NCBI GenBank assembly: GCA_963457665.1
Contig: OY735218.1
Location: 44,873,158-44,937,157 of the forward strand
Length of the DNA: 64,000 nucleotides
Origin: Thysanoteuthis rhombus
Lineage: Eukaryota; Mollusca; Cephalopoda; Oegopsida; Thysanoteuthidae
Reading direction: 5' to 3'
This document shows, one piece after another, positions 1,517 to 62,936 of this stretch. Position numbers and translations under genes: made by a program. Position 1 is the stretch's first letter. Each line of letters begins with the position of its first letter. The notes below the pieces were generated by a model. The model saw only the letters and a program-made list of their open reading frames with translations. It did no database searches and was not told the DNA's origin.

Positions 1517-4318
1517 ACGATTTCTTTTGACCTCTAGTCATTTTGAAAGATAATCATCTCAGCAATACCTTTCCTTTGATGTAAAACTTGACCATATTTG
1601 GCGTAATCAAATCTTTTACCTGTAGAAGCCTGGAGCCGAATTTCGATCGATGCCCAAATATGGTAAATGCAGCAAAAAAAAAAAAAAGAAAAAAATGTCA
1701 AACATTTTTCACTTATCTCAGCATACTAACTAATAGAATCAATAAAAAAGTAATTTTACACAGAAACTACTATCGGGAATAGATTTGCTCACCAAAGGTC
1801 CTTTGAGTATACCAGTCAAATTAGTGCCAAATTTGGTTGAGTGAAGCCAATGTTTAATGACAATCAGGGCCTTTTGTGGTGTAGAGAAAGAATATAGTAT
1901 GGACACTTGCTGCCCAAATGCATGCATTATATCTAAAATTGTGCCGCTAAGACCGATCGTCATTTTGCATGCTTTCGACCTTGAAACAATCTCATATATG
2001 ATCACACAGTTTTTCTTGATGGATGAGTATCAACCGGTACGTTTGGATAAACGTAAATTCAAATAGAAATCACCCAGAGAGCACATACCTCTGCTAGCAC
2101 TATACACAAATAAAAACAAAGATAATCACTTAATACATAGCTTCAGTGCAAGAGAATTAATAGTGTAGGTTTCGAATTTCCATATTTTGGAAGATTGTCT
2201 TAATATATGAAAGAATCTATCAATCGAAACAAAGACTCGATAGGCTCAAAATTCAATCAATTGTTCCTTTACCCATGGTCCACGCTTTCAGAAATTCACT
2301 GAGAACCTTTGGAAATATGACACGGACAAACATGAACAGATATATGAATATAAATGAAAAAGAATGAAAATATATCTCTCAAACAAAAAGAAATCTTAGA
2401 TCTACCCTAACATCTACTCATTTCTTCCGAAGCTCATGCCCCAACATTCAAAATAATTACATTGATCATTCAGAACTTTTGAAGATATTCTATGGAAAAC
2501 AAACAGGTATTAGTGTTTACGTATACTTTTTCCAACTTTGTGGGCAGAATTAAACACAATTTTGCTGATATAATGAGATGAAAAAAAGGATTATGTGGAC
2601 ATTATCATATAGATAGGTGCCAAAAAAGGTCTTTTATATGGTTTTGGTATTCTCTGCGTTGGTGCAAAACTTTCAGAATTGAAATTAATGACGTTGTACC
2701 GTAAGCATCTTTGACTAAGTCAAAGTCACAACAGTACTTGAACAAACTTTTGCTTGAGTCTTGAAGGAGGGCAGGGTTGTGTGATAATTACCAGCATCGA
2801 CCATGGTTGTGTACGTTCACTTTGCACTAATGCCCGAAGAAAAGGCATGAATCCACTAATGGTCCTGGCTATAGGTGAATAGCTGGGCAGTGGGAATACA
2901 TTAGCCCTGCAAGACATTCCATTTGAGAGAAGGTTGTTCTGATGGAAAAAATACAGCTTGGCAATGGTCAAAGTTAGTCCCAAGCGAGGGCAAAGGAGGA
3001 GGATTGAGTCAGAAGCTATCAACCCTACCCCTAAACCTACTTCCTGGAGGGGTTGTAACTCTATGATCCACAAGGAGTCTATAGGAATAAACAAACAGAA
3101 CGTAAGTCATTTTTATTCAGTTTTATAATTAAAAAAAATAAATTTTGGCTTGTGTGTTCGAACACCCACCGAAGATTTCTATTTTGCCACTGAACGGTGT
3201 TTGGGATCAAAACTCCATCTCACTACCCACATTTTCCTTATTTGTTTATTGAATAATAAGATGAAAGATGATATAAAAACAATAAACGGTAAACATTTTA
3301 GAAATCTTTTTTATTCATTCAAATAAAAAATTCCAAAAGTTATATCGATAAAAAAAGTCGTTTTGATAAAACGTCGCTCCCATAAAAAGTCGTTCCGATG
3401 GATTGTGATTTGATGAAAGGTTGTTAGAAATGTAGTCGTTGTATCCCCTGGCCTCCCTCAGGCGATACCCTCTCCATTGAAGAGTATTGTTTACCTCATT
3501 TTCCTCAATAACCCATCTAATGTAATTGAATGAATTGCGGCCTGTTTCAATGAAACAACCCACATATCACGTAAATCATAAGCTAGCATACTCAGAAAGA
3601 TATTTTACCAGCTCATATATTCATCAAAAGGAGGCCTGAGAATAGACAAGTACAAAAACAAAACAACAAAGATGATGATAATGTTGATGGCCGATAACCA
3701 GAAGAGCCTATGTCCTAACAGTTTAAATGGATTGTAATCAGTTCTAGTTGGGAACAGCCATTTGGGTTGTGGACGTACACATTTGATAATAAACATCCTT
3801 CTAATAGGATATGGAATTCAGGTAAATCACAAAATATTTGGTGAAATCAACAAATTTTCACCTGAAACAGACATAACCACGTCTTGTTGTCAGCCATCGA
3901 TATTATGAAAATATGAAACATGACAACGCAACACGAAATATCAGACGAAAATGTCTGATTATATTTTGTCATATCAATGATTACCATATATTGTATCACT
4001 TTATAGATTGCAGTAATTATTCATTATCTCGTCTGTAGATACTTGTTTTTTTTCGATATCTTTTTACAAGTCTACTATGCATAAAAATAAACTTATGAAC
4101 TGACAATCATAAGTGTTATTTTCATGTAAATTAACGCCCATTTGATTCTTTGTTATAATTTATTACCCCCTTACGAGTATCACATAAGTGTTTATCCCTG
4201 GAGTAGATAGAGATTTATAATCAAACAAGGTTTTGACGTAGTGATACTAATGGGGAAGTAAAACAACCAAAGAAACGCGAGTGTAAAAGAATAAAGATAA
4301 TGAAATATACAGCCACAA

Positions 4319-4320
<2 letters not shown>
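1515..4320. other. Unassigned non-coding DNA
   Basis: I see no gene, RNA or repeat family with a second copy in the window here. The longest open frame is 122 codons (minus, 2,726-3,094) and it resembles nothing I recognise. A short segment near 3,150-3,170 has a GTTCGAAC core reminiscent of a tRNA T-loop, but no matching D-arm. Confidence 0.5.

Positions 4321-4371
<51 letters not shown>
4321..4371. repeat. (TA)n microsatellite
   Basis: About 25 uninterrupted TA units, ending just before the LINE fragment that begins near 4,400. Confidence 0.95.
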
Positions 4372-4374
<3 letters not shown>

Positions 4375-4399
4375 GTCTTTCACTCAGTGCTATAAAATT

Positions 4400-4815
4400 A
4401 TGGATTAAAGATGAACAGAACAAAGACAAAAGTAATGTCCAACAATTGACTCCCAAGAATAGCCATAAAAATACAGGGTGAGGCTCTAGAAGGGGTTGGG
4501 GTGAGCTAATAAAGCTAGAGAAAGACCATAAAAGCATAATAAAATGATAAATAACTATCGTCTGGAAAGCATTTGGTATGAATAGAGACATATAGAAGAG
4601 CGCGCTGACAATATGCTTGAAACGTATGCAATGAGTACATGATACAAGCTAAAGGTGCAAAACATGTAAACTAAAAAACGAACAGAAAATCAACTTGAAA
4701 TCGCACCGACAGCCATAGAAAGAGCAACGCTAGGTATAGAGATGGGCTGGGCACTTGGAGAGAAAAGAGACAACGGATGGAGAAAAGCAATGAACATGAT
4801 GATGATATATATAAG
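4400..4815 (+). pseudogene. Decayed RTE-like LINE, C-terminal RT fragment
   Basis: Broken plus-strand frames carry, in family order, landmarks of the C-terminal part of a non-LTR reverse transcriptase. These are a TKTKVMSNN segment near 4,415-4,445, WKAFGMN near 4,565, ERATLG near 4,725, and a WALGEKRDNGW relic of the usual WAGHxxRRxDNRW motif near 4,750. Spacing shows internal deletions, and stops and frameshifts are numerous, so it is dead. It ends in a short GAT-rich run near 4,795, like other RTE-type copies here. Family naming rests on remembered motif order, not on a search. Confidence 0.6.
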
Positions 4816-5339
4816 TGGGGTTAACTTGTCTGATCATTTTATGGTGGCTCTTTGTGGGGTGTCATTATATGAAACGTGTGATATGTTAATCACAACAAAA
4901 GATTATTCATCAAATGTAAGCAACAGAAAATATCCAGTTATAAACCATTCTGGCGAAAATTTGTCATGTAAGTCATAAAATCTTATTTACTTGTTTTTAG
5001 AGCTGTATGTACCAATTCATCTTTTTCAATCCAGATTATTGAGAAACTTTGAGGGAATGGATATTATAACTTATGTGAGATAAATGAAGCAATGCTTAAA
5101 ATCAGGTAACAGAAGGAAGATGATATTAATAAAACCATGTGCGTTCTATTTCCTTACGGACTAAATATTAAAGATCTTATGGGGAGAGGGAATGTGTTTG
5201 AGTACTTTTTCCTCTCCTACCCCAATCTGGAGATCGCTATGTTCGTTCTCATATAAATTGAAATAATAGAGAATAGGCAATCTTAGTATGAGGATTTTTT
5301 GTTTTTTGCTTAAGTCTAAAACTGTATAAATGATGATCT

Positions 5340-6786
5340 TCCGGGATATATTAATAACATGAGGGAACTTCCCAATCAAACAAAAAAGAATATATTGAAA
5401 GATGTAGCTTACAAAATTTATTACAGAATGAATCAATTTATAAGATGACAATATTGCATCAATAGTATGAATATGTATTACATTATTTGACACAAAATTG
5501 TATAAACCACAAATAGAGAAAGAGAAAAGTATACCTCGAAATGTTAGCATCATTTTCTATGAAAATAAAGGACTTGATGATATAAGGACATCCTACCAAC
5601 TTTACCAAGTGAATTTAGAAAAGAAGAGAATAAACCATTCATAACTTACAGATTAGGACCAACAACACAAAATATTTTTGAAATTATGAACACACAATAG
5701 AAACCCTTACTATAAATAAAGATCACGAAATGTGAGTGTCAGGCCTCGCAATTACGTGATTAAAAACTTGGCAACATATTGACAGGTAAACTAGAGATTG
5801 CAAATACTCCAAGTTAAGAAAACTCCTCACAAAGGGTCAAAAAATAGAGAACCAAAGTGTTTGAATTATTGTAAATGTTTTAATGAGATTAAAAAAAGCA
5901 TTAGATATTTTTATTCAGTCTAAGTCAAATAAATATCGAATGATAGAATCAGCATTCGATGGATGGAAAGAAAAAGATTGGCAAATGAAAAAATAAAACG
6001 GATGAAATACATCAACATCCCCCCAAAACGAGTTCGGTGCTAAAGAATTCTCAAGTATCAGCAGATCTCTTGGGATTTCAAAATAAATTTGTTAGAGCTC
6101 CGATGGATGAAGCTGCAAATAATGTAACATTTATATGAAAAACATATCATATTCAAAGGATATAGTCTGAGGTAGGTTAAATAGGAACACCATCATCCAC
6201 GTATAAAGCATGTACTTGTGAACCAGATGATAGTATATTTAATGACTTTGAATTATGTGGAAAGCTACGACTTGAAATAGATGAAAAATGCATAATTTAC
6301 AAATTATGTATTGGATACCTGAAATTCGGAAAATTCGGAAAATCTTATAGTAATATATACCCTGAAGATCTTTCATTAAAATGTAAACATAAAGAAATAC
6401 AAGTAACATTCTTATGTTCGGATACTAAAATCAAGGTTAGAACTTCTATTTGCAAATTGTTTCATAAACGAAATTATTTTCCGTTCTGTATAGTGCAAAT
6501 ACCTTTTAAAACAAGTAGATCTTCATCATATATATTTTACGGAACAATGTCATTTGAATATTTGAGAATAGCTGGATCAACTCATAGATTTGTTGATTTT
6601 ATAACCAAAAATTGTTTCTTTAGTTGTGAGAATAGTCAACATGGCGGCAAAATAAATAAAACTTTTGGACAATTTGATAAAGCCATGATTAGATATCTCG
6701 ATCCATTCAAAACATATCAGCTTGACCATTGGGGATTAATAATAAATATTAAAGAATATGTTTACGAGAGTACAAAAATAGAATAG
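5340..6786 (+). pseudogene. Decayed reverse-transcriptase element, probably Penelope-like
   Basis: Read across several frames, this stretch keeps the ordered motifs of a reverse-transcriptase protein family common in mollusc genomes. They are FITYRLGPTTQNIF (about 5,637-5,680), a Cys-x-Cys-rich spot (5,733), KLRKLLTKGQKIREPK (about 5,812-5,858), FVRAPMDEAANNVTFI (6,091-6,138), TPSSTYKACTCEPDD (from 6,187) and a YLKFGKFGKSY relic of the 'YWIPKxHKxP' motif (about 6,317-6,350). The last part, 6,181-6,786, is open for 201 codons without a stop, which is unusual for such AT-rich DNA; it has 11 cysteines and no catalytic YADD or FADD. I infer a Penelope-like element from the N-terminal motif set. 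The RT core is missing or unrecognisable. A host exon is the alternative for the open part. Confidence 0.45.
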
Positions 6787-18966: not shown

Positions 18967-18973
18967 CTTGTGA

Positions 18974-19054
18974 GGCTGCTGCAGGAGTCGAATCTACCTC
19001 TGATGGGGCAGCTACTTCAAAGTAGCGATGCTCTTACCATTGAGCTAAACAGCC
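18974..19054 (-). tRNA. tRNA-like sequence (inverted SINE-A head / pseudo-tRNA)
   Basis: On the minus strand 81 bases fold like a tRNA. The seven-base ends GGCTGTT and AGCAGCC pair completely (one G-T). The D-arm is GCTC/GAGC around AATGGTAA. A GCTAC/GTAGC anticodon hairpin has a CTTTGAA-type loop, reminiscent of Gln UUG. A T-arm has loop TTCGACT. The region between anticodon and T arms is too long for a class I tRNA. I therefore call it the head of a SINE-A copy or pseudo-tRNA, not a functional tRNA. It points away from the SINE-A body that follows. Confidence 0.5.

Positions 19055-31328: not shown

Positions 31329-31385
<57 letters not shown>
31329..31385. repeat. (TA)n microsatellite at a SINE-B 3' end
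   Basis: About 28 TA units with one CA interruption, directly at the 3' end of the minus-strand SINE-B. Confidence 0.95.
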
Positions 31386-31386
<1 letters not shown>

Positions 31387-31665
31387 AATTGTGTCATCCA
31401 CAGACAGCTGTTTCGATGTATCACATCTCTTCACTGTGGCTATAGACTTCCCATTGTCCCATCCAGTACCACGAGGCAGGATTGAAACCTTCACTTCAGA
31501 CCTGGGGGCCCAATATCCTACCTCTGAACTACGGAACTGGACGGTCAGTAAGGCTGAATCTAAGCGATATATTTATTTATGCATAAATTCCCCATTCGTC
31601 ACAATGCTCCATTCCTACGGAAGAGCATTGCATAAGCTTACAGTGGATGAGTTGCCTCACTTAAA
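31386..31665 (-). mobile_element. SINE-B copy 1 (tRNA-like core, minus strand)
   Basis: Minus-strand homologue of 62,658-62,936. The core has a box-A-like 'tagttcagaggtagga' and a box-B-like 'ggtttcaatcc', flanked by 'ccgtccagttcc' and 'ctggatgggac'. About 110 bases of shared non-tRNA sequence precede it ('gcaatgctcttcc'). The 3' part ends 'cagctgtctgtggatgaca' and runs into (TA)n. No coding. The tRNA-like part lies inside the element, not at its 5' end, which is unusual for a simple tRNA SINE. Confidence 0.65.
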
Positions 31666-37025: not shown

Positions 37026-37084
37026 TATTCTTATGTTGATAGTTTCCGTGACAGTTATTTTGTCCTCATCTCGGCTCATTTCTT

Positions 37085-37135
37085 GTACACAATGTTTCGG
37101 TCGTTGTATCCTATGGTCGTCTTCAGGTGATTAAT
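37085..37135 (-). ncRNA. Hammerhead-like motif, diverged third copy
   Basis: On the minus strand CTGAAGA (37,120-37,126) is followed 22 bases later by GAAAC (37,094-37,098) and ATT. It is flanked by CAC before and GTG after, which can pair as a short helix I. A helix II equivalent is not formed in this copy. A 'cctcatct' block just beyond it, also present beside the SINE-D motifs, suggests common descent. Confidence 0.3.
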
Positions 37136-37940
37136 GGATATTCTTTCGACTGCTGAGACGGAGTAGGCATCTTGGCGTTCGGTCGGAATGTACTCATTCC
37201 ACTGTTTAATTCTGGGTGGGATTAATTTCTTAAGCCCAAATCATTTCGTTGATAGCAATTGGTGTTACAAATCTGCAGATGTCTGGAGCTTGGTAAGGGG
37301 GGGGGGCTTCAATGTTTGATGCAAGCGGGATGATTTGATAGTTGTTCATGATTTTTCCTCTCACTTTTTTAAAGTGTGAAATCCATTTTTGTGTCTGCGT
37401 TTCCAACGTTTTCTTTTAATCCAATCCCGTTTGCATAATATACCCACACATACCCGTACATTACATATACATATGCCTGCATATGCACACCCACATTGGC
37501 GCCCGTAGAAACCTTTTTGTCTTTTGTTACCTTATTTTGATTATGTGTGTATAGTCCTTCCGGATCAGGGCTACCATATGGTGTTCAGCTCCACACCCAG
37601 TTTACTCATTCATACGTCTCAATCTCCAATATTGTTCCCTGTTCAGAATTTTTGTGTCCTCACAAAGCGTTCGGTGACCTTTTCTCACCAGGCCTGGTTT
37701 TTCCATGAGCTTTCAAACGTCCTTCTAATCTAACTTTCAAAGGGCGTTCGTTCTCATCTTTGTCTTTGCAGTCACAACAACATGGAATGCAGCAAACACA
37801 GTCTTCGGTCAAGTTCACGTCTGATGTTTTTTTGTCGTGGTCAGGTGTTTAAGGAGAGTAGAACTGCTCCTGAAAACGATCCTAAGATGCAATATTTGTC
37901 ATTTTTTATTCGACGAAATGTTGTCTACCATTAGGAATAT
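37136..37940. other. Unassigned DNA
   Basis: A 69-codon plus frame at 37,524-37,733 is not recognised; a G-run lies at 37,298-37,306. Confidence 0.35.
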
Positions 37941-45331: not shown

Positions 45332-46465
45332 TCTTTTAGCGTCCGTCGTTGGACATAGACCTTCCCAGGATTTGCCACACTTCTTTATCATGGGCGTCAC
45401 GGAGCCAGTACTTCCTGAACCTGTCTAGCTCGTCTCTCCATCTAACATTTTGCCGGCCTCGGTTGCGCATGTGGTCTCGGGGAATCCATGTTGTGAGTCG
45501 TAATGTCCATCGATTGTCTGCCATTCTTGCAACATGGCCAGCCCACCACCATTTAAGATTTTTTATGGATTCTATGATGTCTCTAACTCTTGTCTTTTCC
45601 CGGATGTACTGTGCTGTTTTGTGGTCTGTCCATGTGAGGCCCAGCATTATTCTTTCATGTGCACGTTGCATGATTCTCAGCTTACGGGTCTGTCTCTTGG
45701 TTAAATTCCATGTTTCAGCTCCATAAGTGGCTATTGGGAGGATGCATTGGTTATACACTCTTCTCTTTAGGATTAATGGGATCTTATTATTTTTAAAGTT
45801 GAGCTAACTCTGCCAAAGGCTTGCCATCCTAGTGTGATTCTTCGCTTGATCTCTTCTTCCTTTGAGGGTCTCATGGAGATTCGTTGCCCTAGGTAGATGT
45901 AGTGGTCTACTTTCTCAAGTTCTGTGTCCTCGATTTCGATCTTAGTGTTTTTATCTCCAATGTGGTTGTTGCACATGATCTTCGTCTTGCTGAAGTTCAT
46001 GTGTAGGCTGACTTTCTCGCTCTCTTCATTTAGTTCATCTATCATTAGTTGGAGGTCGTGTAGGTTCTCTGCGAAAAGGGCTATGTCGTCTGCAAATCTG
46101 AGTTTGCTCAGATACTCGCCGTCTATTTTAACCTTAGGGATTTCTACTGAGTCGAACGCCTTTTTGAAGTCGATAAATGCTACGGCAAGTGGTAGTTTAT
46201 ACTTTGCTGCTTTTTCTTTCAGTTGATTTATCGAGTGCAGGTGGTCCATGGTCGAGTAGCTTCTTCTAAAGCCAGCCTGTTCACGTGGCTGGTTTTCATC
46301 GAGTGTCTTTGTGATTCGGTTGGTGATGATCTTTGTGAAAAGTTTGTATACACAGTTGAGTAGGCTTATAGGCCTATAGTTGTTGAGGTCTTTCGGGTTT
46401 CCTTTTTTATATAAAAGCATTATGATAGCAGTGTTCCAATAGTCTGGGACTTTACTGTGTTTTAG
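45332..46465 (-). pseudogene. RTE-like LINE, RT and C-terminal region, best-preserved copy
   Basis: Two long minus-strand frames, 45,773-46,507 and 45,336-45,758, differ by one frameshift. Order: WNTAIIMLLYKKGNPKDLNNYRP, KIITNRITKTLDENQ, AGFRRSYSTMDHLHS, AFIDFKKAFDSVEIPKV, then directly KIDGEYLSKLRFADDIALF (FADD intact), YIYLGQRISM, GWQAFGR, the second frame with ERIMLGLTW, WWAGHVARMADNRW, TTWIPRDHMRN and a stop at 45,336. Some 70 residues usually lie between EIPKV and KIDGE; they are missing, so RT is defective. The endonuclease is absent. It is truncated at 46,465 against a CA tract. Confidence 0.8.
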
Positions 46466-46570
46466 ACACGCACACACACACACACACACACAAACATACT
46501 CATTCACACATAATGACGAAAATTATTTTTTTTAAATGTGTGTGTAAGTGTGTTTGTGTGTGTGTGCTAC
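46466..46570. repeat. (CA)n / (GT)n junction between two LINEs
   Basis: CA units at 46,466-46,490 and TG units at 46,537-46,565 can pair with each other. They sit exactly between the truncated 5' ends of two oppositely oriented RTE-like copies. Confidence 0.85.
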
Positions 46571-51709: not shown

Positions 51710-51950
51710 CTTTGTTTACAAGTAATCTGATAGTTCTAGGTTCAATCCCAGTGTGAGACAATAATAATACTACTAATGCTAAGAGGGGAGTGCGGTCAAT
51801 ATACTACCGTCGGTTAAATAAAGGGTTCGGTTCGTTACTTCCCCACACCTGCCAGATGATACCTGATGAAGGCTGTAGAGTACAACGGCCGAAACGTTGT
51901 ATGAAAAACAACCAAGATGAGGATGGTCCGAATAATAATAGAAATATTGG
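51710..51950 (+). mobile_element. SINE-D copy 1 (tRNA SINE with hammerhead-like motif)
   Basis: The 5' end is truncated in the tRNA head, but box B 'ggttcaatccca' survives at 51,740. It shares with 58,440-58,720 a long well-conserved body: 'gcggtcaatatac', 'ccgtcggttaaataaaggg', 'ttccccacacctgccagat', the hammerhead-like motif and the 3' end 'gatgaggatggtccgaata'. A 68-codon frame over it is fortuitous. The high similarity of the two bodies compared with other SINE families here suggests recent activity. Confidence 0.75.
51858..51903 (+). ncRNA. Hammerhead-ribozyme-like motif in SINE-D copy 1
   Basis: CTGATGA (51,863-51,869) is followed by a hairpin GGCTGT/ACGGCC (six pairs, one G-T; 8-base loop) and GAAAC (51,891-51,895), then GTT (51,896-51,898). 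ATAC just before the core and GTAT just after GTT can pair as helix I. This is the arrangement of the hammerhead core (CUGANGA, helix II, GAAA, NUH). Deviations: one extra A between core and helix II; the cleavage triplet would be GUU; helix III would be only the self-complementary ACGT, which in known cases works as a dimer. Activity unknown. Confidence 0.4.
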
Positions 51951-53640
51951 AAACGGAATTTACAAACTTAGTTTGAATTTCACACGGGACACTTGACTCA
52001 GCTATAATGACCTTGAAAACGGCATGAATCCACATTTTTCAATCAAAAAAAGAAAAAAAAGACCCCCCATGTATATTGTCGACTTTGACCAAGTCCAGAC
52101 AGTCATAGACACATAGATAGAATGTTTGTGCATTCTGGAGAAGACTTTTATCATCTTTTAGTCACAAACATTTTTGTTGCTGATGTCAGTATAATTTGCA
52201 TAGATATTTCACAAAAGTTTTAAAGAGGAAGAAAATCTCAAGAAAATTTTTTTCGTGCGACGATGAAATACAAATTCTTGAAGCATTGCAATTTTTCCCA
52301 TGTGTATGTTTTACTACAAGCGAAGAAAATAGCATTTAGTGCGTGTTTGGAATATTTTAAAGAAAGAAAAATGTCAGTCTCCAAAGACAATGTTGCTAAT
52401 GTTTTATGACGTATTCGTTTTTTGTTTAGTTTTATTTGTCTCAGCTTATTTGTTTCAAATGATTTTTTAGTTTTGTGGTCATCTCAAATCGAATACTTCC
52501 TAGAAGAAATCGATGTTTTTTTCATTTTTTCGAATAACTTTGCGATCGTGTGAAACATGTTTCTGCTGAGCAGACCCTAGCATAGCATCACAACCGTGAC
52601 GGATCAAATTAAATCTTCTCAGCCCTGTGATCCTATTTCGGAGGTTAGGTACAGGACCAAGTTTAGCTTCCAACCCTCTGGAGTGAGTGGCTGCCCTGAA
52701 CAATATCTTTTCATGGCTCAAATATTTACTATCGGCATTTTTTAGATTTTTGTTCAGTAATACATATGCAGGTATCGTTTCAATTTTTGGAAGTTCGCTT
52801 TGCACCCATCATTTTACGAAAAAAGATGAAAGAATAAATTACGTTCGGCGTTTGTTGTGCAGTAAATAGTTACAGGGGTAGCACGCACATCCTTCATCTC
52901 TCGCATACACTCAAGTCTCCCTTACATTCCCCCACCCCAGTGAATCAGCCTGAAAATATCACCCTCATCATTTTAGATAGCTGGAAGCGCTAAAATATTT
53001 TGGTGATGGTAATTGCTTTTTTCCCATCATTTCAGCTTACAATTCTTTTTGATAAAAACACTCTATTGTCAAATAGTAGATTAAACCTGTACACATGCCT
53101 CTATGAATCCACAGTATAAGTAGTGCGTGTCCTTTCCAATGGGTATGACAACCTTTTACGGTTTCTACTTACCTTTTGCTCACTCACTTCTCTGTCAACC
53201 ATCATGGCATGTCAGGTACAAGACATTTATGGTCAAAGGAGGATAATTGCTTTTTTGTTCAATGATGAGTTTGTCTTGCAATGTTGGTGCAGTGACATAC
53301 ATTCTCAATGTGTACTCAACTATTATGGCCCTGTAGGAGATCAAAGAGAGAATCTGGAAGAAAGTTCTTAAACAGACCTTACAAGGGAACTAGGAAGATT
53401 GTGAATTCGTTCCCTTCATTTTTGGAACAGTGCTGAAGACACATGCAAAAAAGGTTGGATAGACCTTAATCCTAACTTTTGCAAAAATACCGTAAATAAT
53501 GGACATCCAAGAAAAGTTTGAAATTATTCAAGAATAAGTTCTGCCTCGAATGATGGAGAAATGATAAATATGTATGCAATGCAAATAGCGTCAGTAGTTT
53601 ACATTGCCAACGGCTACATCTATTTAGATTCCAACAAGCA
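51951..53640. other. Unassigned DNA
   Basis: A 101-codon minus frame (52,500-52,805; segment LGPVPNLRNRITGLRR) has ordinary composition and is GC-richer, but I recognise no family. A plus frame at 53,123-53,371 is unassigned. Confidence 0.3.
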
Positions 53641-57405: not shown

Positions 57406-58395
57406 ACACACACAAGCCGGAAACAACCCAATAGAACGAGTTTTAGCCAGTTTTTCATGTTACCGACAGCAGTGATAACATATTGGTCATTTTTTCTGAA
57501 AAACAAGTTATTTAGACTTTGAACACAGTCGTTATTTCACAGAAACGGAGAAATAATGATTGGTTGTTGTAAAATTGTTGCCATTGGAGTATCATTTTTG
57601 GTTGTAAACCCTTCTTTTTAAGACTGATAGAATTTCCTCATACTTGATGATTGATTCTGCTCCTCTGAACGCTTCTTAGCCAGAACAAAAACAACGCTAT
57701 ACATTGTCACGTACAACGCCAGAATGATCTCTATAAACATGCTCCCAATCGATCTTAAAAATCAAAAAGAAGAAAATCGAATGGGAAATTATGGGTCTTA
57801 GCAAAATTGGTAGACCCAGAGTAGAACTGATCAAACTAAAGAACAATCATTCCTTCACATCTATGGAAAGAAATAGGAAAACGAAGCGGAGTTGACTTTT
57901 TATTCATAAAAAAGACAAAACCTTCTCAGATTGCATGGCCAGTCACCGTACAGCTGCATAGAGGTACAAACTGTACATAATTCAAATCTAAGCACTCACT
58001 TCAAAGTCAACCAAGGATATAAACAACTTCTACGACGACTTGAACTCCATATTCCAAAACACCGAAAATACTTGAACGACATCCAACGCCTAGGAAGGAC
58101 GAAGTAATGTAAGTTGCGTTGGTAAATTTGGATACAAAATACAGAATGATTGATGTAAGGATTTTGCTTAGCAACAGCGTACGGGTTCGAAATCATGAGC
58201 ATTAGAGAATGGACTCGAAGGAGTTCAAATCACTGAAACAAAATTGAAATTGTATTGAAGAAGACGATTGTGACCTCGTCAAAGATATTCAGGTCCTAAA
58301 TAAGGTCAATGTAAGAAGTGACCACTGAATAATAAGATGTAAAATTTAAATCAACATCACGAAAAAGTGTTCTGTAGCAAACTGGAACCATTTAG

Positions 58396-58721
58396 TATAT
58401 CCCAGAATTTTTGAGATGAGGTATTATTATTATTTCTATTGAAATGGACACATAGCGCAGTGGTTACAGCATCAGACAAATTACTGTTAAGTAATCTGAT
58501 GGTTCTAGGTTCGATCCTAGTGTGAGACAGTATAACAATACTACTAACGCTAAAAGAGGGGAGTACGGTCAATATACCCCCGTCGGTTAAATAAAGGGTT
58601 CGGTTCGTTACTTCCCCACACCTGCCAGATGATACCTGACGAAGGTCGTGGAGTGCAACAGCCGAAACGTTGTATGAAAAACAACAAAGATGAGGATGGT
58701 CCGAATATCAATAGAAATAAA
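58396..58721 (+). mobile_element. SINE-D copy 2, inserted in the RTE, with target-site duplication
   Basis: Flanked by identical 13-base copies 'tggaaccatttag' (58,383-58,395 and 58,722-58,734); LINE coding continues on both sides. The tRNA-derived head has box A 'tagcgcagtggttacagc' (58,453) and a perfect box B 'ggttcgatcct' (58,508); the anticodon-like loop contains TGTTAA. The body and 3' end match copy 1. Before the head, 'tattatttctattg' is an inverted copy of the 3' end 'caatagaaata', an odd feature for a SINE. The element is probably mobilised by a LINE machinery, as for other SINEs. Confidence 0.85.
58631..58675 (+). ncRNA. Hammerhead-ribozyme-like motif in SINE-D copy 2
   Basis: CTGACGA (58,636-58,642; the variable core position is C here, T in copy 1), hairpin GGTCGT/ACAGCC (one mismatch), GAAAC (58,664-58,668) and GTT, with ATAC/GTAT flanking as helix I. 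Same deviations as copy 1. Confidence 0.4.
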
Positions 58722-60055
58722 TGGAACCATTTAGCGTACAAAAAGAGCCTCATCAATCTGGCTAGAATTCAAAAGCAGATTTGAACTTCTCGACGAATTC
58801 AACAACAAAGTAACAACCTCTATTATTAAAGTCACGAATATGTTTTACATATTTGCACTAAATAGCAAACGAGCCATCCTTAATCTCACGGTAAAACTCA
58901 AGCCACCAACTATAGGAGAAAAAATTGAAGTAATCGAACTAAACAGAAGCACTCAAAAGAAACAAAGAGGTTGCAAAAGACGATACACAACAGTCACCGG
59001 ATCTATCCAAAAAAAGTTTGGAGTTCAAAGCTATTGACAACAAACTCTCAATACAAGAAGAATTCAAATAACTAGAGTACTCGGAAAAATAGAGACGTAA
59101 CAATCGATAGGGACCGAATAGTTGAACGTAACCAAGAATTCAACAAAGAAACCTTTTCCTCCAAACAAGGGACACATAATAATGAACAAAATGCAAAAGT
59201 CACGAGTTGAAAAAATTGAGGAGTTCTCAGACATTGTTCCATTCAAAGAGAAGGAAATCATCAAACAAAAAAAGAAAGGCCCTAGAACCAGAAAACATCA
59301 CCATTGATCTACTCAAAAAAGTTGGTGAAGTCATCAATAGGAAACTAGCCATTCTATTCAACGTATGACTCAGAGTAGGATAAAAAAGACTGGAACACTG
59401 CAATCATAATGCTATTATATAAATAAGGGAACCCGAAAGGGGACCCAAAAGATCTAAACAACTATAAGCCAATAAGTCTACTGGAATGTGTCTACAAACT
59501 GTTTCTTACCAGTGATGACTATGAATTGGTATCTTCATTCCGTAAATTAACTGAAAGAGAGAGCAGCAAAATATAGAATGCCACCTGCTGTAGCTTTTGT
59601 TGACTTCTGTGGAAATCCTCAAGGCCAGCACTCAACAGGAAGTAGACTCCAGGGTCTTATCTATAGGGGATACGACAAGGTGACAATAGCTCACCAAAAC
59701 CCTTTATAGCCTGCATCGATATGACCGTGCAAAAGCTGGTCGGGAAAAATTAAGGAATCAAAACAGACGGTAAATACCTAAATAACCTCAGATTCGCTGA
59801 CAAAGTTGTCTTTTTTGCTCAGAACCTTCGTGATCTCCAAATATTGCTAGACGAACTGAATGAAAAAAGCAAAAAGTTGGGCGTCGCAGTAAAACAAACT
59901 TCATTCACAACAAACATGATGAAGGCAAAGACACAACGATAAACACTGGAATTGAAAAAAAAGACCTCTAGATCTACTTAAAACAACAAATATCCATGAC
60001 ATTTTCAAAAAAAAAAAAAAAGAAATCATGCGAAGAATCATTTTTTTCCAGTCCC

Positions 60056-62657: not shown

Positions 62658-62936
62658 TTACGTAGGGAAACTCGTCCATTATAAGCTATTATGGCAATGC
62701 TCTTCCAACTCTGGAATGGAGCACTCTGGTGGATGGGGAATTGTGTGTAAGTAAAATATTTCGCTTAAATTCGATCCTTTTGACCGTCCAGTTCTGCGTA
62801 GGGCAAGGTAAAATGCTAGCCTCTGGGTCTGAAATGAAGGTTTCAATCCTACCTCGTGGTACTAGATGGGATATTGGATAGTCTGAAGAGTTATAATACC
62901 ACAAAACAGCTGTCTGTGGATGACATAATTAATATA
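62658..62936 (+). mobile_element. SINE-B copy 2 (plus strand)
   Basis: Same layout as the minus-strand copy at 31.4-31.7 kb: 'gcaatgctcttcc' leader, 'gaccgtccagttc', box-B-like 'ggtttcaatcc', 'ctagatgggat', and the end 'cagctgtctgtggatgaca' directly followed by TA/TG repeats. Box A is more decayed here than in copy 1. Confidence 0.65.

Follow-up and report, generated by a model that had tools for sequence, protein, structure and literature searches.

A hammerhead-bearing repeat in Thysanoteuthis rhombus, read as the end of a Penelope-like element

The repeat and its hammerhead-like motif

The window, the whole 64,000-nucleotide stretch of Thysanoteuthis rhombus DNA that we analyzed, contains two copies of a repeat, called SINE-D in an earlier, sequence-only reading, and one copy of another repeat family, here called E; all three carry a hammerhead-like motif (Table 1). 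The SINE-D repeat is about 307 nt long including an optional tail of about 34 nt. Copy 1, for which we found no inverted part and no target-site duplication, ends at the first of two end sites (site 1) described below. In the 2.73-Gb genome, a 24-mer spanning GAAACGTTGTAT in the repeat had 6,965 exact matches, and we found 13,383 matches to 22-mers of the tail with up to two mismatches, while control patterns that ran the 24-mer and the tail 22-mer backwards gave 0 matches. The head of the repeat contains the letters TAGCGTAGTGG and GGTTCAATCCC, which resemble the A- and B-box consensus. tRNA-finding programs made no call in six copies of the repeat, and Rfam made none in four. Elsewhere in the window, we observed a tRNA-like sequence with a long (AT)n run behind it (18,973-19,054, minus strand) and, by eye, broken LINE-like reverse transcriptase frames (45,339-46,522, minus strand).

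Table 1. Positions in the window of the repeat copies, their flanks, and the parts of their hammerhead-like motifs
Feature	Position	Strand	Details
Copy 1 of the repeat ("SINE-D," read as a solo PLE pLTR)	51719..51946	+	Consensus 45-272, 5'-truncated
Copy 1, hammerhead-like motif	51859..51902	+	CTGATGA 51863-51869, extra A 51870
Copy 1 motif, helix I (ATAC/GTAT)	51859-51862 with 51899-51902	+	
Copy 1 motif, helix II (GGCTGT/ACGGCC)	51871-51876 with 51885-51890	+	
Copy 1 motif, GAAAC and GTT	51891-51895; 51896-51898	+	
Copy 2, left target-site duplication	58383..58395	+	TGGAACCATTTAG
Copy 2, inverted 3' tail lying 5' of the copy	58396..58440	-	Consensus 307-263
Copy 2 of the repeat, direct, full head	58444..58720	+	Consensus 1-273, site 1 end, no tail
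Copy 2, hammerhead-like motif	58632..58675	+	ATAC, CTGACGA, GAAAC, GTT, GTAT
Copy 2, right target-site duplication	58722..58734	+	TGGAACCATTTAG
Family E copy (second, older pLTR-like family)	37060..37289	-	Ends at GATGAGGACA
E copy, hammerhead-like motif	37088..37129	-	CAC, CTGAAGA, extra C, decayed helix II, GAAAC, ATT, GTG

The sequence-only reading had placed a CTGA(T/C)GA core in two copies of SINE-D, and we recovered both: CTGATGA...GAAAC at 51,863-51,895 and CTGACGA...GAAAC at 58,636-58,668, each on the plus strand. Helix II of copy 2 (GGTCGT/ACAGCC) has one mismatch. The majority consensus of 41 copies reads ATAC-CTGATGA-A-GGCCGT-AGAGTACA (8 nt)-ACGGCC-GAAAC-GTT-GTAT, in which helices I and II are both paired, helix II by six perfect pairs, and the type I core CUGANGA...GAAA...UH is present. 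Helix III is absent from the motif, which has only a self-complementary ACGU without a loop; judging from these letters, helix III could form only between two RNAs, through the ACGU. We read the motif as a real, minimal type I hammerhead without helix III. The sequence-only reading is supported in that the motif has this layout and lies in a retroelement, and in that Penelope-like elements (PLEs), which it had named, are described as carrying hammerheads that lack helix III (PMC7761336; PMC11167929); scattered animal repeats carry them as well (PMC7761336).

We then asked how far chance would produce such letters. The loose pattern CTGANGA-N5..35-GAAAC occurs 3 times in the window against 1.15 expected, and at least 3 occurrences were reached in 8 of 100 shuffles; thus, the loose pattern is weak evidence. 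A strict descriptor, requiring at least three pairs in each of helix I and helix II and a GUH-like site, was satisfied by 2 sites in the window but by none in 60 first-order Markov resamples, and the loose site at 37,094-37,126 (minus strand), the third of the three, did not pass it. Nor are the three sites independent, copies 1 and 2 being 91% identical by descent and the third belonging to another repeat family.

That third site had been taken for a diverged SINE-D copy without helix II. Its letters, CTGAAGA...GAAAC, are where they were said to be, and the variable core position is indeed T, C, and A across the three sites (CTGATGA, CTGACGA, and CTGAAGA), but the site is part of family E and not of SINE-D. 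We found 44 places matching E, the window copy included, when the best 40 of 702 candidates were scored; the others are 78-89% identical to it. Helix II is missing in the window copy, as had been noted, but not in the family: the majority of 25 E instances is CAC-CTGAAGA-C-GGCCGT-AGGGTACA-ACGGCC-GAAAC-GTT-GTG, with the same six pairs as in the repeat, and therefore the loss in the window copy is decay. The motifs of the two families differ in the free core position, the extra base, loop II, and helix I; in helix I, one U-A pair of the repeat is C-G in E, and the pair beside it has been lost. Both families keep an extra base ahead of helix II, A in the repeat and C in E, which had been listed as a caveat. 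An extra base at the same place is known from a viroid hammerhead.

We noticed two further hammerhead-bearing repeats. One, with B-box-like letters, lies in the window at 31,380-31,560 (minus strand) and 62,790-62,930 (plus strand) and at loci L041, L042, L043, L047, L056, and L084. It ends in a minimal hammerhead, CCACA-CTGAAGA-GTC..GAC-GAAAC-AGCTGTC-TGTGG, whose helix III is a four-pair self-complementary stretch without a loop. Seven copies covary (score of 0.354 versus 0.183 for shuffled copies), five of which were found with the Rfam model, and this repeat may also be a PLE end. The other (CCTGAAGAATCCCAAACAGGACAGAAAC...) lies in the middle of loci L044, L046, L048, L049, and L051 to L055, with a head-to-head inverted copy in L049.

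Insertion ends and the adjoining reading frame

We read the ends of 41 insertions: copies 1 and 2 of the window, together with the 39 other sequences that best matched window positions 51,750-52,000. Every direct copy ends at one of two sites (41/41), either at consensus 272-283 (site 1; 24/41) or at 303-307 (site 2; 17/41). These sites are about 34 nt apart and bound the tail. An inverted piece lies upstream of the direct copy in 29 insertions (28 identified by script and L029 by eye) and is absent from the other 12. In 26 of the 29, the outer ends of the two pieces are at different sites and the insertion has exactly one tail, with the direct copy ending at site 1 in 16 and at site 2 in 10; L034 and L102 were assigned to a site despite offsets of about 10 nt. 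If each end were chosen independently, 26 of 26 would be expected with a probability of 1.5e-8. The remaining three (L004, L100, and L109) have an inverted piece whose outer end is internal; two of them, L004 and L109, carry no tail on either side. We found no tail at both ends in any of the 29. Two pattern lists likewise contained 0 sites with both tails, against 0.7 expected, which is not significant. Among the first 100 listed 24-mer sites, all 15 neighbor pairs within 700 bp are head to head, against 0.13 expected. A script that allowed shifts and one mismatch, and for which no null was run, detected direct repeats of 9 nt or more in 21/41 insertions.

In locus L008, the approximately 300 nt between the inverted and direct pieces of the repeat form an open frame that ends shortly before the direct copy. 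We used this frame piece as a DNA query. Among the best 40 of 1,666 candidates scored, itself included, there were 39 other places 93-96% identical to it, and 38 of the 40 reach within five bases of the query end. We fetched 10 of the 40 copies. In all 10, the stop of the frame is followed by about 40 nt and then by the repeat with its head, which begins at consensus position 1 in nine and at position 6 in one; the repeat ends at site 1 in eight of these copies and at site 2 in two. A near-palindrome (...GGTTGTCCACATGGACACATAG) immediately precedes the head; some "solo" copies, L038 among them, have these letters there too. Because the end of the frame runs into the repeat in 10/10, we take the repeat to be this family's pLTR and its lone copies to be solo pLTRs. 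The tRNA-like boxes are then part of a pLTR, and the stripped-down form of the hammerhead follows from the repeat being a detached PLE end.

Just upstream of the frame piece in L147, we found VYSIPCCCGHEYTGESCRPLKVRVEEH / NRVYSIPCCCGHEYTGESCRPLKVRVEEHRKA, which is 41% identical over 39 residues to L066 (pairwise E value of 5e-8), a GIY-YIG sequence by Pfam. Pfam gave no match for either of the two new frame pieces, and the PDB gave none for the first. From the GIY-YIG resemblance, the insertion ends, and the usual C termini of PLEs, the frame is best read as that of a PLE, seen here at its C-terminal part, and the family presumably encodes a PLE reverse transcriptase. In the consensus, the letters after the hammerhead read as a frame, MKNNQDED(S/G)PNNNRNNNNTSSQKFRDI, that would be the start of the element's reading frame and would put site 1 at 15 codons and site 2 at 27. 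Family E has the same frame start, M-N-Q-D-E-D, together with tail-like letters. About 230 bp are common to its window copy, L117, and L118, and a simple A-/B-box pattern found no match in L117 and L118. Of four head-to-head E loci read by eye, two have the tail on one side only and two are ambiguous. E has the appearance of an older PLE's pLTR.

Older relics were also present. PLE-like sequences with a GIY-YIG endonuclease, which we call P1, occur in eight copies (L082 to L085, L087 to L089, and L091; mostly ~4,000-5,900), about 66-80% identical in pairs, and a search with one gave at least 150 matches. A second relic, P2, was seen at one locus, L086; a piece of it that looked by eye like reverse transcriptase had no support from Pfam. 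Neither relic family has a significant match to the repeat. Two match lists of at least 150 entries each contained no long open frame, except for one row of 1,848 residues with internal stops that may be a withheld stretch. Runs of N, which mark withheld stretches, lie near the GIY-YIG search matches in L063, L070, L079, L082, and L090.

Origin of the repeat and possible action of the motif

We consider it very likely that the repeat is a PLE pLTR, present mostly as solo copies, that carries a hammerhead, then an apparent frame start, and then an optional 34-nt tail and is primed at two sites. Against this reading count the lack of Pfam and PDB matches to the frame pieces, the three internal inverted ends, the 12 insertions with no inverted piece, and the failure of P1 and P2 to match the repeat. 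In the mechanism that we propose, the PLE enzyme would start reverse transcription at two fixed positions within the element, one on each side of the tail. Each of the two cut target strands would prime one cDNA, one per site, and the two cDNAs would join head to head. Synthesis that stopped at the 5' end of the pLTR would leave a solo copy.

The sequence-only reading had made the carrier a tRNA-derived SINE, which was not supported: the repeat and its head follow a GIY-YIG-like frame at all 10 junctions read, no tRNA was called in the copies tested, and in the junction copies the repeat is part of a larger element and not an element standing alone. We considered trans copying of a SINE by a PLE, for which no partner was found, and rejected it in favor of solo pLTRs, given the L008 frame piece and the 10 junctions. 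A separate tRNA-like SINE that a PLE had captured or become fused with, and that still multiplied in trans on its own promoter, would account for the box-like letters in the head and for the large excess of repeat sites (6,965 exact 24-mers) over the 1,666 PLE-frame candidates, although these numbers come from different kinds of search and are not closely comparable. We think this unlikely, as each of the 10 junctions has the head inside the pLTR, no separate element is needed to explain solo pLTRs, and the tRNA programs were silent.

Two other readings fared worse. Animal retrozymes with type I hammerheads are suspected of using PLEs (PMC7229834; PMC7761336), but copying of the repeat as a retrozyme through RNA circles is very improbable here: there are no tandem neighbors among the 15 close pairs, all of which are head to head, and the two ends of the repeat fall some 50 and 85 nt beyond the hammerhead site rather than at it. 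Hardly credible at all is an ordinary SINE copied by a LINE, with inversions by twin priming. LINE insertions do show duplications, truncations, and inversions, and the internal inverted ends in L004, L100, and L109 would suit them, but 26 of the 29 inverted pieces begin at the second of two fixed sites and the GIY-YIG-like frame is joined to the repeat in 10/10.

We next considered whether the motif of this pLTR acts. The sequence-only reading had pointed to Rfam hammerhead models and to compensatory changes as checks on the motif. The models matched nothing in the window at the gathering score and nothing in 51,740-52,000 with permissive filters. Across the genome, RF00163 gave 16 matches when the best 73 of 299,496 candidates were scored, 2 over the cut-off and 14 below it, all of them in other repeats and none in SINE-D. 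The repeat went unmatched in the window, among these scored genome candidates, and in the four copies tested. Compensatory changes gave no useful covariation within the repeat. Among 55 instances, non-CpG letters were changed in 12/605 core positions and 64/2,621 others; with two duplicate rows removed (53 instances), the counts were 11/583 and 61/2,581. The copies decay neutrally, and the core has no extra conservation. Family E shows a core that changes less than the rest (13/275 versus 133/1,298 non-CpG letters, p 0.003), in copies picked by likeness to the window copy, a choice that may favor the central part of the sequence, to which the core belongs. In helix II of E, 123 of 150 cells are paired, and six cells have changed from G-C to A-T on both sides.

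These results bear on a rival view of the motif, that its hammerhead-like letters are past cleaving and serve only as a binding or priming structure. This is a real possibility, if somewhat short of an even chance. The motif has no helix III and no Rfam match, and predicted folds other than the hammerhead layout are better: -13.8 versus -12.9 kcal/mol for the consensus, -11.6 versus -10.7 for copy 1 (by 0.9), and -10.7 versus -6.0 for copy 2 (by 4.7). In a longer piece of the repeat, the predicted fold favors a downstream hairpin that occupies the 3' side of helix I. The green anole PLE does not need its hammerhead for insertion in vitro, as mutants still insert (PMC11167929). The lower rate of change in the E core speaks against a motif past cleaving. 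The hammerhead belongs to the element and, if active, would most likely need a second RNA or the PLE protein. A bolder version, in which a hammerhead formed only as an ACGU-paired dimer joins two PLE RNAs, an enzyme dimer holds two templates (site 1 and site 2), and the tRNA-like head is a promoter for short pLTR RNAs, seems to us unlikely. If the dimer pairing were true, it would explain why readable two-ended insertions have exactly one tail; if the head were an internal promoter, short pLTR RNAs could produce the flood of solo copies.

Comparison with known systems

The original observation of a hammerhead-like motif stands; we read the carrier as the end of a PLE, not as a SINE, and the motif is of a published kind. 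Solo PLE pLTRs can therefore pass for tRNA-like SINEs with a ribozyme, which is a trap for repeat annotation. The thousands of copies are also a natural record of PLE insertion, the mechanism of which is still described as unclear. Both start sites were used in every two-ended insertion whose outer ends we traced to the two sites, and the clean way in which the tail switches from one end to the other is the most useful result here. The schistosome Sm-alpha SINE-like repeats also carry a hammerhead and are not known to be PLE pLTRs. A search of openly licensed papers found no description of the present repeat family.

The ends of the repeat match published PLE insertions. Such insertions have a 31-bp tail on one of two inverted pLTRs, duplications of 8-10 bp, and palindromes at the inverted junction, and the pLTR extends 12 codons into the frame, or 22 with the tail (PMC3846280). 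The green anole PLE has two internal start sites, which flank the tail, and a hammerhead with stems I and II whose cleavage requires the PLE protein (PMC11167929). Thus, Poseidon of the green anole and the Adineta Penelope families share with the repeat a GIY-YIG-like frame end ahead of the pLTR, a hammerhead limited to stems I and II, a tail of 30-40 nt between two internal ends, and inverted head-to-head pieces with short duplications. Unlike theirs, the pLTR described here has a tRNA-like head. The extra base before helix II may be a further difference. Animal non-LTR retrozymes are, like the repeat, small, with type I hammerheads and a suspected use of PLEs, but they differ from it in being tandem and in having other boundaries. 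Minimal type I hammerheads in animal genomes also lack helix III, and here one is tied to a particular PLE family. Both the motif and the element are of known kinds, and what is unusually clear in this family is the traces of insertion and the exchange of the tail between the two ends.
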